DNA from: a virus
Virus record (IMG/VR): IMGVR_UViG_3300042881_000699
Location: 1-23,243 of that record
Length of the DNA: 23,243 nt
Reading direction: 5' to 3' (one strand)
Shown: piece after piece, positions 5,382 through 16,853 of the stretch
How positions within the stretch are numbered: position 1 is the first letter of the stretch
Layout: every line of letters begins with the position of its first letter
Notes under the pieces: model-generated
The model's database searches: none
Told to the model about the DNA's origin: nothing
What the model saw: the letters and a program-made list of their open reading frames with translations, nothing else
Made by a program: the position numbers and the translations under genes

Positions 5382-5770
5382 AAGAATTAAACGAGAAACA
5401 AAAGCTATTTTGCAAGTACTATGTAAGTGAGGAGTTCTTTGGTAACGGAGTAAGAGCTTATTGCATGGCATATGGGCTTGATTATACGGACATTAGGGAA
5501 TACAATGGGGCGAAAGTTAGTGCTTGTGAGCTATTAACTAAACCTAACATCCTCGCGTGCATCAATGAGCAACTTGATGAGGCAGGATTAAACGATAACT
5601 TTGTAGACAAACAGTTATTATTTGCCCTTACTCAAAACGCTGACATGAGCAGTAAAGTTAAAGCGATAGGAGAATACAATAAGTTAAGACAAAGAATCAT
5701 TGACAAGTCTAAGGTTGAAACCTCAGGCGAAATAATAGTAAAGTATGGCGACGGAGTTAATCCTGCATAA
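5378..5770 (+). CDS. terS: Terminase small subunit
   Basis: This 130-residue protein fits the phage terminase small subunit family (Terminase_2-like), which recognises packaging-site DNA and recruits TerL. The N-terminus LNEKQKLFCKYYVSEEFFGN followed by RAYCMAYGL is the characteristic KQ..F...Y...GNG..AY..AYG opening of the HTH domain. ASCELLTKPNILACINEQL matches the family LL..P.V...I segment. The C-terminal region about residues 85-112 is helical and suited to oligomerisation, ending in a short TerL-facing tail. Its last 26 nt overlap the terL start, a common coupling for these subunits. Confidence 0.85.
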   Translation: MKELNEKQKLFCKYYVSEEFFGNGVRAYCMAYGLDYTDIREYNGAKVSACELLTKPNILACINEQLDEAGLNDNFVDKQLLFALTQNADMSSKVKAIGEYNKLRQRIIDKSKVETSGEIIVKYGDGVNPA

Positions 5771-6905
5771 GCCACATGAGGCACAACAACAAATTTTAAA
5801 CTGCGATAAACGATTTATTGTTTTATTGTGTGGAAGGAGGTTTGGCAAGAGTTTAATAAGCTCTCAAATCTCAATCCTAAATATCATGTCACAAAAAAGA
5901 GTGGCATACATTACACCGACCTATCAATTAGCATCGGTGTTCTTTGATGAGATAGTTAAATTAGGGGGTAATATCTTTAAGACCAATCGAACCGAACTAA
6001 CAATAAAATTTAATAATGGGGAACTAAGGTTCTTCACTGGAGAGAACATCAACTCATTAAGGGGACATAAATTCCACATGGTAATAGTAGACGAGGCTTC
6101 TTATGTCAAAGACTTAAAGGAAGCATGGGAAAGAGTTATAAGACCAACGCTAACGGACTATTCAGGTAAGGCTTTATTTGTATCAACTCCAAGAGGCTTT
6201 GATTACTTCTATTCACTTACTCAAAACAGTGGACATGATTGGAGGACATTTAAGTTTAGTACTTATGACAATCCTTATATACCAGTGTCAGAGATTGAGG
6301 AGGCAAAACAAATGCTACCTAACGCAGTCTTTGAGCAAGAGTACATGGCTAACCCAATGCAGAACGCTGACAATCCATTTGGTTCTGATGCTATAAGAAA
6401 CTGCATTCAACCTTTAAGCACTAAACCTGCAAAGTACTTTGGAATAGATTTAGCCAAGTCTTATGACTATACGGTTATAATTGGTTTAGACCAAGACGGA
6501 AATGTAGCACACTTTGAACGCTTCCAAAAGTCATGGCAACACACAAAGGATACTTTATTACAACTAAGTAGAAACACAGTAGGGTATGCCGATAGTACAG
6601 GAGTGGGCGACCCAATCATTGAAGAGATAAGTTTAAGCATACCAAACATTCAAGGCTTTAAGTTTACCGCTCAAAGTAAGCAACAATTAATGGAAGGCAT
6701 AGTAAGTGCAATACATCAAGGGTTAATCGGTTATCCAAAGGGGACTATAACCGATGAGCTTGAAGTGTTTGAATACAAGTTTACTTCAACGGGTGTTAGA
6801 TACTCAGCAAGGGACGGCTTCCATGATGACTGCGTTATGGCTTTAGCACTGGCATACAAATCATTTAAAGAAAACAAAACAATCGGCACATATAGAATAA
6901 GATAA
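5745..6905 (+). CDS. terL: Terminase large subunit (ATPase-nuclease)
   Basis: This 386-residue protein is the packaging motor. Walker A is CGRRFGKS (29-36), Walker B with catalytic glutamate is MVIVDE (112-117) and the coupling motif is STPRG (147-151). The RNase H-like nuclease domain follows, with GIDLAKSYDYT (D235), YADSTGVGDP (D283) and the closing DGFHDDCVMALALAY (D361/D362). All expected catalytic residues are present. At 386 residues it is on the short side (many TerL proteins are 420-550). The start at 5745 lies inside terS, and LHKPHEAQQQIL soon after it matches the normal N-terminal adenine-binding region. It acts at the portal, although the portal gene is about 10 kb away here. Confidence 0.95.
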   Translation: MATELILHKPHEAQQQILNCDKRFIVLLCGRRFGKSLISSQISILNIMSQKRVAYITPTYQLASVFFDEIVKLGGNIFKTNRTELTIKFNNGELRFFTGENINSLRGHKFHMVIVDEASYVKDLKEAWERVIRPTLTDYSGKALFVSTPRGFDYFYSLTQNSGHDWRTFKFSTYDNPYIPVSEIEEAKQMLPNAVFEQEYMANPMQNADNPFGSDAIRNCIQPLSTKPAKYFGIDLAKSYDYTVIIGLDQDGNVAHFERFQKSWQHTKDTLLQLSRNTVGYADSTGVGDPIIEEISLSIPNIQGFKFTAQSKQQLMEGIVSAIHQGLIGYPKGTITDELEVFEYKFTSTGVRYSARDGFHDDCVMALALAYKSFKENKTIGTYRIR

Positions 6906-6906
6906 G

Positions 6907-7539
6907 ATGAACATAAAACAATATCAAGGACTCTACAACGCCATTAAGTTAGGCGACAACAATGAAATAAGAACGGCATACAATGTTATGTCAGTGCTTA
7001 CCGGTAAACCTATTTCAGAATATAGACGAATGAAATGGGTTGACTTTCTTAAGGAGCAAGAGGGCATAACGATTCCCGACATCAGCTCATTCCCTGACAA
7101 ATGGGTTACTGAGTTTATGGTGCAAGGCGAAAAGTATTTTGTCAATCAGTATATAACCGATTGGAATACCGAGCAGTTTATATCCATGTCATCATTGACT
7201 AAAGAGAAAGAGGCTATTGTTGACAACCTGCATTTAATTTTAGCTACGATGTGCTACAAAGAGAAAGACGAAGATGTGCAAATGACTGAGTTCAATCGGA
7301 GAGCTGAGTTATTCAGGGAGCATTTGGATGTGGATGTCGCTTATCCGATAGGGTTTTTTTTTGCACTTCTTTTAGTGAAATTGTCTCAGGCTACCCCGTC
7401 TTATTCAACAAAGAAAAGGAAACCGAAGAAGAAGAACAAGAGTCGGATTGGTTCGCTTCTAAGTGGTCTTGGTATGCGACAATCGATAAGCTCTTTGCTA
7501 AAGAAGATAGGTCAAAGTTTTCGTTCTATTTTAAAATGA
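6907..7539 (+). CDS. Probable tail assembly chaperone, zero frame
   Basis: The zero frame encodes 210 residues. The first about 150 (to IGFFF) look like a genuine folded domain, with RRMKWVDFLKEQEG, a central helical region and LHLILATMCYKEKDED, similar to proteins acting as tail assembly chaperones in Bacteroidota phages. After a T9 run at 7354-7362 the frame continues for 59 codons as a strongly basic, low-complexity stretch (KKRKPKKKNKSR) unlike the preceding protein. The -1 frame from the same point reads as a natural continuation, see the entry at 7362. The zero-frame tail is therefore either an alternative product or an artefact of one missing T. In other siphophages such chaperones precede the tape measure gene, here it directly follows terL. 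Confidence 0.65.
   Translation: MNIKQYQGLYNAIKLGDNNEIRTAYNVMSVLTGKPISEYRRMKWVDFLKEQEGITIPDISSFPDKWVTEFMVQGEKYFVNQYITDWNTEQFISMSSLTKEKEAIVDNLHLILATMCYKEKDEDVQMTEFNRRAELFREHLDVDVAYPIGFFFALLLVKLSQATPSYSTKKRKPKKKNKSRIGSLLSGLGMRQSISSLLKKIGQSFRSILK
7354..7362 (+). other. T9 slippery run, candidate -1 frameshift site
   Basis: Nine consecutive T residues fall as GGG TTT TTT TTT GCA in the zero frame, giving a T-TTT-TTT heptamer on which both tRNAs can re-pair after a -1 slip. It is also long enough for RNA polymerase slippage. A 4-bp hairpin (CACT at 7364, AGTG at 7374) follows immediately but is too weak to be called a stimulator. A homopolymer miscount (true length T10) would give the same protein. 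Confidence 0.6.
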
Positions 7540-7607
7540 ACGCTTATGACTTCTTAAACCATTTATGTTATTTAAAAGATAAAGCCGATAACACACCAAA
7601 GAAATGA
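7362..7607 (+). CDS. -1 frame extension of tail assembly chaperone
   Basis: From the T9 run, the -1 frame is open for 81 codons to TGA 7605-7607, which overlaps the next ATG. It reads CTSFSEIVSGYPVLFNKEKE, an acidic linker, then DWFASKWSWYATIDKLFA and NAYDFLNHLCYLKDKADN. The W-rich K-W-x-W-Y-x-x-I segment and the final L-x-Y-x-K-D-K helix are what I expect at the C-terminus of Bacteroidota tail chaperones. There is no ATG, GTG or TTG in this frame before 7536, so an independent gene is unlikely. Fused to the upstream part, the product would be 233 residues, the equivalent of a gpGT-type long form. Confidence 0.65.
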   Translation, partial: CTSFSEIVSGYPVLFNKEKETEEEEQESDWFASKWSWYATIDKLFAKEDRSKFSFYFKMNAYDFLNHLCYLKDKADNTPKK

Positions 7608-8200
7608 AACTAAGTGACGATATATTAGACAAGTGCGCAAGTGCCTTAAAGTTATGGGGCAACGCCAACGCTGAAAGTATGCGACAACTGTTAAGACAGA
7701 GATTGAAGCATAAGAACACGGAGAGTAATTTGGCTCAAAGTATAGTTTTAAAGAATCCAACTGTCAAAGGAACTGTGGTCAATATGGCTATTGAGTTAAA
7801 CGATTACTGGATGTTTATAGATTTGGGGGTAAAGGGTTTAAAGAATCAATCGGCTTCAGGCGTTCCAACTAAGACATATACTAACAAGGACTTTCCTCAA
7901 GGGTTTGCATTTAAGAACATGGCAACTCCGCCTCAAATGATTAGTAGTTTACAGGACTTTATTGCAAGAAAAGGAATACCCGTAAGGACAAGCAAGAATC
8001 AAAGTGGAGCAGAGGTAATACAAAACTCATTCACAATGGCTCAAGCAATGGCGGATTCAATTAAAAAGAAAGGTATAGACGGGACTAAGTTTTACACCGA
8101 CACATTTAACCAAGAGAGTTACAACGAGCTTACAACTATGCTGAGTGATATTATAGGAAAAGAAGTAGAGTTTAAATTAATAACCGAGTTTAAGCGGTAA
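7604..8200 (+). CDS. gp10-like tail completion protein candidate
   Basis: This 198-residue protein resembles the HK97 gp10-like group of neck/tail-completion proteins as seen in Bacteroidota phages. It has an N-terminal helix (SDDILDKCASALKLWG), a beta strand pair, then YWMFIDLGVKGLKNQSASG, which matches the typical FID.GV.G signature with a flexible loop, and FAFKNMATPPQMISSLQDFI. The C-terminal helix carries conserved-looking hydrophobics. The ATG overlaps the -1 frame stop of the chaperone (ATGA), which itself supports that frame being translated. The gene is placed among tail genes. The role at the head-tail joint is inference from similarity and context. Confidence 0.55.
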   Translation: MKLSDDILDKCASALKLWGNANAESMRQLLRQRLKHKNTESNLAQSIVLKNPTVKGTVVNMAIELNDYWMFIDLGVKGLKNQSASGVPTKTYTNKDFPQGFAFKNMATPPQMISSLQDFIARKGIPVRTSKNQSGAEVIQNSFTMAQAMADSIKKKGIDGTKFYTDTFNQESYNELTTMLSDIIGKEVEFKLITEFKR

Positions 8201-12362: not shown

Positions 12363-14111
12363 ATGGCAAAAACTAAAATAGAAGTCGACTTAGTCATCAA
12401 AGGTGGCGAAAGTGTAGAGCAAGTAGAGAACAAGACCAAAAGTCTGAAGGCTCAGTTAAAAGAAATAAAAGCCTTGTTGGCTTCAGGTACTTTAGATAAT
12501 CAAACATTTAATAAACTATCAAGAGAAGCAGGAGAGCTTCAAGATAGGATTGGAGATGTAAGCGCAAGGGTTAAAAACTTAGCCAGTGACTCTAAGAGGT
12601 TAGATGCTTTGATGTCGGCTGCTCAAGGTTTAGTCGGTGGGTTTGCTGCCGTTCAAGGTGTAGCTGCTTTACTTGGCGATGAAAACGAAGACTTGCAAAA
12701 ATCAATGGTCAAGCTTCAAGGAGCAATGTCAGCTCTTGCAGGTATTCAGGCGGTTGCAAATACTTTAAATAAAGAGAGTGCGTTAAGTACAAACTTATCA
12801 GGTAAGGCAAATATTTTCAATTCAATTCAACTTGGTGTTTCAAGTGCGGCTCATTATGTTTATGCCACTGCGGTTGGAACATCTACGGGACTAACTAAAG
12901 CTTTTAGAATTGCTTTATTAGCTACGGGAGTGGGTGCAATTATAGTGGGTATAATTGCGCTTGCAAGTGCTATGGATAGTTTTGGCGATAGCACTAAAGA
13001 AACTAACGAGAAACTTGAAAGGCTTAAAAAGATTCGTGAAGATTTAAACGCACAAGCGGAAAAAGAATATGAGTTAAGGGATGCAAATAGAAAGGCGGCA
13101 TCAGATGGGACATTAGCACTTAAAAGAGAATTGGATTTATTAATTGCGAAAGGAGCAAGTGAAAAGGAAATATACGAAGCAAGTAAAAAACTAAAAGAGC
13201 AGGAAAGAAAAGACATAAATGACCAAATTGGTTCTTTAGGAGATAGCATTAAAAGAACGCAAGAACTTAAAGACAATGAGAATGAAATGAACATTCTTGA
13301 CGAATCCTATAAAAAAGGAATTAGAGATAAGGCAGAAGCAGACAATAAAAAGGCTCAAGAGAAAAGGGATGCCGATGCTAAGAAAAGACAAGAAGAAAAA
13401 AAGGCGGCTTCTGAAAAAGAGATGTCAGATTTGATGGCTGCACTTGAAGAAGAAAACGCAGCAGAGGAAAGGCAAAACGAAAGAGTAAGAATACAAGGCG
13501 AGAAAGAGATGGCAGAGCTTATGGCTCAGTTAGAAGCAGAAGTCAAAGCCGAGCAAGATGCAGCAGATAGAAAAGTTGAGTTAGATAAACAAGCTGCTCT
13601 CCAATCATTACAAGACAGAAAAGACATTGAAAATGCTAAAATAGCAATCGTAAATGATTCTTATTTAGCGTTAAATGCTTTAGGCGAATTGGCGTTAGGT
13701 CAACAATTTAAAAATACCAATGCAGGAAAAGCCTTAGCCTTAGCACAAATAGCAACGGACACGGCATTAGGATTTATACAAGGTTTGAGAATTGCTCAAC
13801 AATCTGCGATAGGGACTGGCCCTGCGGCTGCGTTTGCTATGCCTGTGTTTTATGCTTCTCAAGTAGCTGCGGTATTAGGTGCAGCAAGTAAAGCAAAGGG
13901 GTTGTTAGGTGGCGGAGGTTCAACATCTGCTCCAAGTGGTTCGGGTGGTGGTGGCGGTGGTTCAATCTCAAGTCAACCTCCGAGAATGGATAAGTTTGAA
14001 AGCAACCGACCTGCAATGAATCCTAATCAAAGAGTCTATGTTTTAGAAAAAGACATAACCGATTCTCAAGGTAGGGTGGCGAAGATTAGACATAACGCAA
14101 CTTTGATTTAA
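12363..14111 (+). CDS. Tape measure protein
   Basis: This 582-residue protein sets tail length and is expelled during DNA injection. Residues 15-80 are coiled coil (VENKTKSLKAQLKEIKALLA), about 85-210 are Ala/Gly-rich and hydrophobic with a clear membrane-like stretch at 182-203 (RIALLATGVGAIIVGIIALA), about 215-425 are a long charged coiled coil full of K/E/A, and 440-520 are again hydrophobic. A Gly/Ser linker (GSGGGGGGSISS) precedes the conserved-looking C-terminus RVYVLEKDITDSQGRVAKI. This C-terminal motif is typical of Bacteroidota tape measures. By the usual rule of about 1.5 angstrom per residue the tail would be near 85-90 nm, a short siphovirus tail. It starts 1 nt after the previous stop, and a 42-nt gap follows it. 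Confidence 0.85.
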   Translation: MAKTKIEVDLVIKGGESVEQVENKTKSLKAQLKEIKALLASGTLDNQTFNKLSREAGELQDRIGDVSARVKNLASDSKRLDALMSAAQGLVGGFAAVQGVAALLGDENEDLQKSMVKLQGAMSALAGIQAVANTLNKESALSTNLSGKANIFNSIQLGVSSAAHYVYATAVGTSTGLTKAFRIALLATGVGAIIVGIIALASAMDSFGDSTKETNEKLERLKKIREDLNAQAEKEYELRDANRKAASDGTLALKRELDLLIAKGASEKEIYEASKKLKEQERKDINDQIGSLGDSIKRTQELKDNENEMNILDESYKKGIRDKAEADNKKAQEKRDADAKKRQEEKKAASEKEMSDLMAALEEENAAEERQNERVRIQGEKEMAELMAQLEAEVKAEQDAADRKVELDKQAALQSLQDRKDIENAKIAIVNDSYLALNALGELALGQQFKNTNAGKALALAQIATDTALGFIQGLRIAQQSAIGTGPAAAFAMPVFYASQVAAVLGAASKAKGLLGGGGSTSAPSGSGGGGGGSISSQPPRMDKFESNRPAMNPNQRVYVLEKDITDSQGRVAKIRHNATLI

Positions 14112-16289: not shown

Positions 16290-16805
16290 ATGGCTTGTTT
16301 ACTATCAACTGGATTCACATTGGACTGCCGAGATAGTATTGGCGGAGTCGATGAAGTTTACATAGGCGAGTTAGAGTATTTAAACACTGCTACTTTTGCA
16401 AGTTCAGCAGGTGCGGTAACTGTAATGGCAATGACGGGTGGAAAGAAGTTCTACAAGTATGAACTTAGACGTAACACGGCAGAAGCTAAAGCGGACAACG
16501 CAGGTGAGGTTACAAGCGGAAGCGGTTACATTATGCAAAGTGTTGAATTTTCTTTAGATAAATTCGATGTTGCCAAACGTAACGAGATTCGTGTTCTTGC
16601 TCAAAAGCCTTTGATGTTTATCGTTAAAGACAAGAACGGTTTGTTCTCCTTGTACGGTTCTGAGAATGGTCTTGACCTATCTACGGGAACTGCAGGAACA
16701 GGCAAAGCGGCATCTGACCTTAACGGTTTTGTGTTAACATTCACAGGCGAAGAAAAGACTTATCCTTTGGGCGTGTCTCAAGCGATTGTCACTTCTTTGA
16801 TTTAA
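16290..16805 (+). CDS. Probable tail tube (major tail) protein
   Basis: This 171-residue beta-rich protein resembles Bacteroidota phage major tail proteins. GGVDEVYIGELEYL at the N-terminus, GGKKFYKYELRRNTAEAKAD, a strand block QSVEFSLDKFDVAKRNEIRV, then FIVKDKNGLFSLYGSENGLD and a closing DLNGFVLTFTGEEK. The order V-x-D-x-N-G-x-x-x-L-x-G-x-x-x-G-L followed by D-x-N-G is the signature I associate with this group. It is placed 2 nt after the MCP stop and just before the strong terminator, so the two most abundant virion proteins would share a transcript. A head decoration protein is the main alternative. Confidence 0.6.
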   Translation: MACLLSTGFTLDCRDSIGGVDEVYIGELEYLNTATFASSAGAVTVMAMTGGKKFYKYELRRNTAEAKADNAGEVTSGSGYIMQSVEFSLDKFDVAKRNEIRVLAQKPLMFIVKDKNGLFSLYGSENGLDLSTGTAGTGKAASDLNGFVLTFTGEEKTYPLGVSQAIVTSLI

Positions 16806-16817
16806 TAAATTATAATT

Positions 16818-16853
16818 AAAAAAAGGGAGGCTTAACGGCTTCCCTTTTTTTTT
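16818..16853 (+). terminator. Strong rho-independent terminator
   Basis: Seven As, then stem GGGAGGC (16825-16831), loop TTAACG, stem GCTTCCC (16838-16844) and nine Ts. The 7-bp stem contains one G-U wobble and can be extended by pairing the A-tract with the T-tract. The symmetry means it could act in both directions. It lies 12 nt after the tail tube stop and would end the abundant head-block transcript. Confidence 0.9.

Follow-up and report, generated by a model that had tools for sequence, protein, structure and literature searches.

Recoding in the tail assembly chaperone genes of phages is a textbook case of ribosomal frameshifting. In phage lambda and its kin, the tail cluster encodes a short protein (gpG) and a -1 extended form (gpGT), and a chaperone gene of this type is usually, but not universally, the immediate upstream neighbour of the tape measure gene. 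Chaperones of this type bind the tape measure and major tail proteins and do not occur in virions. The design in which a -1 shift yields two products is typical of the tail assembly chaperones of long-tailed phages; ribosomal frameshifting is the usual mechanism there, sometimes without stimulators (PMC5009743). In the Shigella mxiE gene, by contrast, a run of Us gains one more U, which fuses two overlapping ORFs into a longer product. T runs of more than eight have been named as slippage sites, with mxiE as an example (PMC3711429), and in many bacterial genomes selection against polymerase slippage becomes apparent once A or T runs reach nine (PMC1088944).

The gene described here is found in a 23,243-nucleotide stretch of viral DNA, IMG/VR record IMGVR_UViG_3300042881_000699 (hereafter the window), and its features are all on the + strand. 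An ORF at 6907–7539 encodes 210 amino acids and contains nine consecutive Ts (T9) at 7354–7362, read as GGG TTT TTT TTT GCA. Starting at T9, the -1 frame stays open as far as 7604, and the stop codon that closes it (7605–7607) overlaps the ATG of the next gene (7604) as ATGA. An earlier note on this DNA had described a frame switch at T9, with a zero-frame tail ending at 7539 and a -1 frame running into the ATGA overlap, and had stated that the -1 frame has no start codon before 7536. Both descriptions hold, the earliest ATG in the -1 frame being that at 7536. The N-terminal, G-like part (6907–7353, residues 1–149) is common to both products, and the W-rich, T-like C-terminal part occupies the -1 frame from 7362 to 7607, including the stop. 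Joined by the shift, the two parts make a product of 233 amino acids. The only other T9 on the + strand of the window (16845–16853) belongs to an intrinsic terminator, as its U-tract (gggaggc-ttaac-ggcttccc and then Ts), and is not a recoding site.

Is the frame switch a property of the gene or of the assembly? A search with the N part returned 31 IMG/VR loci at 82–100% identity, all with GGGTTTTTTTTTGCA and a -1 C part, and with T9 in 31 of 31; a profile search added loci L033–L036 (61–82% identity), which also have T9. Searching with the C part led to distant loci at about 40% identity, whose zero-frame N part precedes the C part and meets it at a T9, and tblastn from these extended the set to two cultured Nonlabens phages, P12024L and P12024S. 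Each wider search contributed as many as 80 viral loci, and two MAG contigs from Bacteroidetes were added; in a profile comparison, the window family and the distant group aligned over 217 columns (E = 3e-19). The final set of 139 distinct relatives comprises IMG/VR contigs, the cultured Nonlabens phages and Bacteroidetes MAG contigs. In all loci examined (139 distinct sequences), the W-rich C part is in the -1 frame relative to the N part; a genome with both parts in one frame was found in 0 of 139. The run at the junction is invariant in the window family, and in the whole set it is T9 in 135 of 139 sequences, T8 in two and T10 in two.

In the cultured phages, the homologous genes are annotated as separate hypothetical proteins: genes 40/41 of P12024L (L062 13561–14255; phrog_32199) and genes 38/39 of P12024S (L063 4561–5255). 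Each pair occupies two frames directly after terL and carries T9 followed by a -1 W-rich C part. They differ from the window gene in that the first T of T9 is the second base of its codon (CTT TTT TTT TAT). Each pair looks like one recoded gene.

The earlier note had allowed for either a slip or a missing T. Homopolymers are error-prone, and a single-ORF homologue exists in the Duneviridae, so that an ordinary gene with a base lost from its assembly might have been imagined. The same -1 relation, however, recurs across many samples, in 139 distinct sequences that include cultured P12024L and P12024S, and both frames are restrained just past the run. A missing T is excluded by the T9 in 135 of 139 sequences and by a C part that is always in the -1 frame, and to read the gene as a single ORF is hardly credible; as judged from the comparison of genomes, the recoding is real biology, and the earlier note's reading of a slip is supported. 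Replication slippage is another possible source of frame change. T9 is slippery for DNA polymerase too, and the rare T8 and T10 variants do exist, so a mixture of T9 and T10 genomes might switch the C part on and off. Such phase variation is very improbable: the T8 and T10 variants keep the -1 relation, and the in-frame genome that it calls for is the one found in none of the 139. Two close kin, L183 and L191, have T10 and T8 at the junction with the -1 relation kept, and provide a natural test of run length.

The pattern of substitution indicates which frame is read where. In the large clusters, synonymous changes dominate the zero frame as far as the run; the next 6–12 codons show low variation, with neither frame alone free; and beyond this dual stretch purifying selection acts in the -1 frame alone. 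The change of frame falls 10–16 codons past the run. In the window gene, the dual-coded stretch corresponds to 7363–7395, where the zero frame ends its last helix while the -1 frame starts the C part, both frames being restrained at codons 4–16 from the run. The remainder of the zero frame (7396–7539) is the basic distal tail of the unshifted product, where nonsynonymous changes dominate. The earlier note had looked to homologues for any conservation of this tail; over the whole overlap in the window family, the ratio of synonymous to nonsynonymous changes was 2827:928 for the -1 frame, against 811:3642 for the zero frame and 395:3769 for the third, an outcome in favour of the note's reading. 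Since purifying selection acts first on the zero frame, past the run, and after that on the -1 frame, it appears that both products are used. The part of the short product that matters seems to end about 10–16 residues past the slip, and in relatives the zero frame extends 23–58 codons past it.

This is consistent with the AlphaFold model of the window product. The N-terminal part is mostly a confident helical domain, and its last helix (142–162) ends ten residues past the run, in agreement with the selection data; residues 162–191 have pLDDT below 50. An internal start for the C part was considered and rejected: most loci lack a -1 start codon before the run, and an ATG lies between the run and the W motif in 2 of 192.

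Further light on the fused form comes from the Duneviridae. The phrog_25418 proteins of Flavobacterium phage FPSV-F7 and Cellulophaga phage Ingeline are encoded in one open frame of 293–301 amino acids, in which a shift is unneeded. In pairwise profile comparison (hhalign), this family aligns over the N part, the junction and the C part (235 columns, E = 2.8e-7), a result obtained with the distant group and with the joint profile but not when the window family was used by itself. Since a single-ORF protein aligns through the junction, the fusion is suggested to be a real protein architecture, and the shift not to be universal in the wider family. In Flavobacterium phage 6H, an annotated 191-amino-acid ORF (L219 10352–10927, minus strand) diverges, from residue 186 onwards, from the undivided 293-amino-acid ORF found in FPSV-F7 and others, which is either a sequence error or a true variant.

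How is the frame changed? T9 occurs in all three codon phases, as TTT TTT TTT GCA (phase 0), GTT TTT TTT TCG (phase 1) and GGT TTT TTT TTG (phase 2), and the flanking residues differ between the phases. Common to all T9 variants, whatever the phase, is an in-frame T_TTT_TTT core. If this heptamer alone mattered, its extensions to the left and right would be expected to vary independently; instead, they sum to two, giving T9, in 44 of 48 lineage states (defined at 80% identity), compared with a mean of 22 and a maximum of 34 in 20,000 shuffles, which ignore ancestry. On a tree from which the junction residues had been left out, the run changed phase at least nine times (well-supported branches alone force fewer) and length four times. 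The near-identical phages represented by L068 and L071 differ by a run that has slid one base with its length unchanged. Outside the junction, these loci amount to 976 kb with only four T9 and one T10 on that strand; the T9 at the junction is not there by chance.

These observations bear on the rival view that the ribosome makes a conventional programmed -1 shift on T_TTT_TTT, in the manner of lambda G/GT, under which the extra two Ts would be meaningless. Whichever of the three phases the run takes, the heptamer is in frame and fits the X_XXY_YYZ pattern of such sites, and its presence throughout makes ribosomal slippage possible. For the ribosome, however, seven Ts would suffice and a C would be allowed at the last position, yet T7 and T_TTT_TTC are absent at the junction among the relatives; TTC has no uses in the two core Phe codons, whereas its share of Phe codons is 21% within the N parts and 27% within the window. 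The compensation of the extensions to nine also speaks against this explanation, as does the lack of a stimulatory structure in the folded stretches: seven downstream and one upstream were no better than shuffles (z from -1.3 to +1.5) in a test confined to stem-loops, which are common but not obligatory stimulators. Ribosomal frameshifting by itself is accordingly the less probable course, although a serious competitor.

Polymerase slippage is favoured because T9 is kept at exactly nine in every codon phase, although a -1 ribosomal slip needs only T_TTT_TTT. Programmed transcriptional slippage sites are homopolymers of at least 8–9 A or T that persist whatever the reading phase, and T9 fits this description; such a site would yield transcripts of mixed run length. 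Slippage by RNA polymerase, alone or with help from the ribosome, is somewhat better than an even bet from these patterns, against which stand the T8 and T10 runs in 4 of 139 sequences. More than 100 related phages of Bacteroidetes-type bacteria have kept the run at nine even when it moved, which suggests a slip by the polymerase and not only by the ribosome. Early closure of the +1 frame was discarded as evidence for slippage. Stops occur within eight codons in 43 of 46 lineages, and this is weak evidence because the background in the same region is already 0.74.

The best explanation, to which we assign a probability of roughly 0.6, is thus one recoded gene with two products, polymerase slippage on T9 and a role as tail chaperone. 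Most transcripts would carry U9 and direct synthesis of the 210-amino-acid protein, consisting of the N domain, a helix extending about ten residues past the run and the unselected basic tail. A fraction would be read one base back to give the 233-amino-acid fusion of N and C parts; from the selection pattern, we infer that both proteins are made. The likeliest source of the shift would be RNA polymerase slipping on T9 and adding one U (U10), and ribosomal -1 slippage on U_UUU_UUU, the heptamer being in frame in every T9, may assist. The addition of a U that fuses two overlapping frames would resemble the case of mxiE; unlike that bacterial regulator gene, the window gene belongs to phage morphogenesis and has been retained in a large group of phages.

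By analogy with lambda gpG/gpGT, the short form would act on the tape measure protein and the rarer long form would bring in the tail tube subunit. A literature search, with subscription journals outside its scope, found no report of polymerase slippage in a tail chaperone gene. The wider proposal, that a group of Bacteroidetes tailed phages sets its tail chaperone ratio by polymerase slippage on exactly nine Ts and not by ribosomal frameshifting, is tentative and falls a little short of even odds. If true, an exact run of nine Ts in any phase would show that a polymerase can set the same protein ratio, and phage and host would be coupled via the fidelity of RNA polymerase. The recoding also provides a likely function and a correct gene model for many phage genes annotated as unknown, which in the cultured phages appear as two proteins.

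Which role do the two products play? The earlier note had named the gene a tail assembly chaperone candidate, and a G/GT-like role is likely, given the two-product -1 design and the operon of tail genes, although this falls short of proof and the family searches gave no match. Upstream is the large terminase subunit (5745–6905, +; phrog_2, E = 2e-41), which has the same position in P12024L, L036, L059 and L060. The downstream neighbour (7604–8200, +) is neck- or tail-completion-like, with a weak match to phrog_29822, and the member of its family in P12024L matches tail completion/Neck1 phrog_5. The tape measure protein (12363–14111, +; phrog_1538 and phrog_24676, tail length tape measure) is encoded in the same cluster. 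The gene order in the window is terS, terL, the T9 gene, a neck-like gene, two tail genes, tape measure, protease, major-capsid-like, portal and adaptor. P12024L has this order too, including the operon terL – X – neck – tail – tail – TMP.

As in lambda, a short protein and a -1 extended form are predicted within the tail cluster of a long-tailed phage. The window gene differs from gpG/gpGT in having no detectable sequence relation to them and a slip site that is a T9 of fixed length. Two traits that the earlier note had flagged as atypical are likewise differences from lambda: the unshifted product runs 23–58 codons past the slip, and the gene lies beside terL, with three genes (7604, 8235 and 9464) between it and the tape measure gene and more in P12024L. 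The location, adjoining terL and neck-like genes and not immediately ahead of the tape measure gene, would also suit another head–tail or neck morphogenesis factor that is genuinely recoded, as would the failure to find a chaperone family match. Such a factor is unlikely, since the -1 two-product design is typical of the tail chaperones of long-tailed phages (PMC5009743) and no second gene of this design was seen in the tail cluster of the window. Genes 48/49 of P12024L, which precede its tape measure gene, were considered as the real chaperone pair and set aside because their sequences do not fit.

The tail chaperone role was also sought in structures and families. No named match to a known chaperone family was found in PHROGs, Pfam or NCBIfam, PDB sequence profiles gave no convincing match, and Foldseek against PDB returned no match with E < 0.001 for the window model. 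The first structural match for this model was 2ob9, the HK97 chaperone gp13 (Z 2.5, rmsd 2.8, 52 residues). It is counted as noise because the better model, that of L065 (pLDDT 91), did not list it; the L065 model matches P12024S and many unnamed phage proteins.

Another protein of the window, encoded at 16290–16805 (phrog_19091), is homologous to two genes of P12024L, 03 and 09, which suggests a duplicated structural protein.
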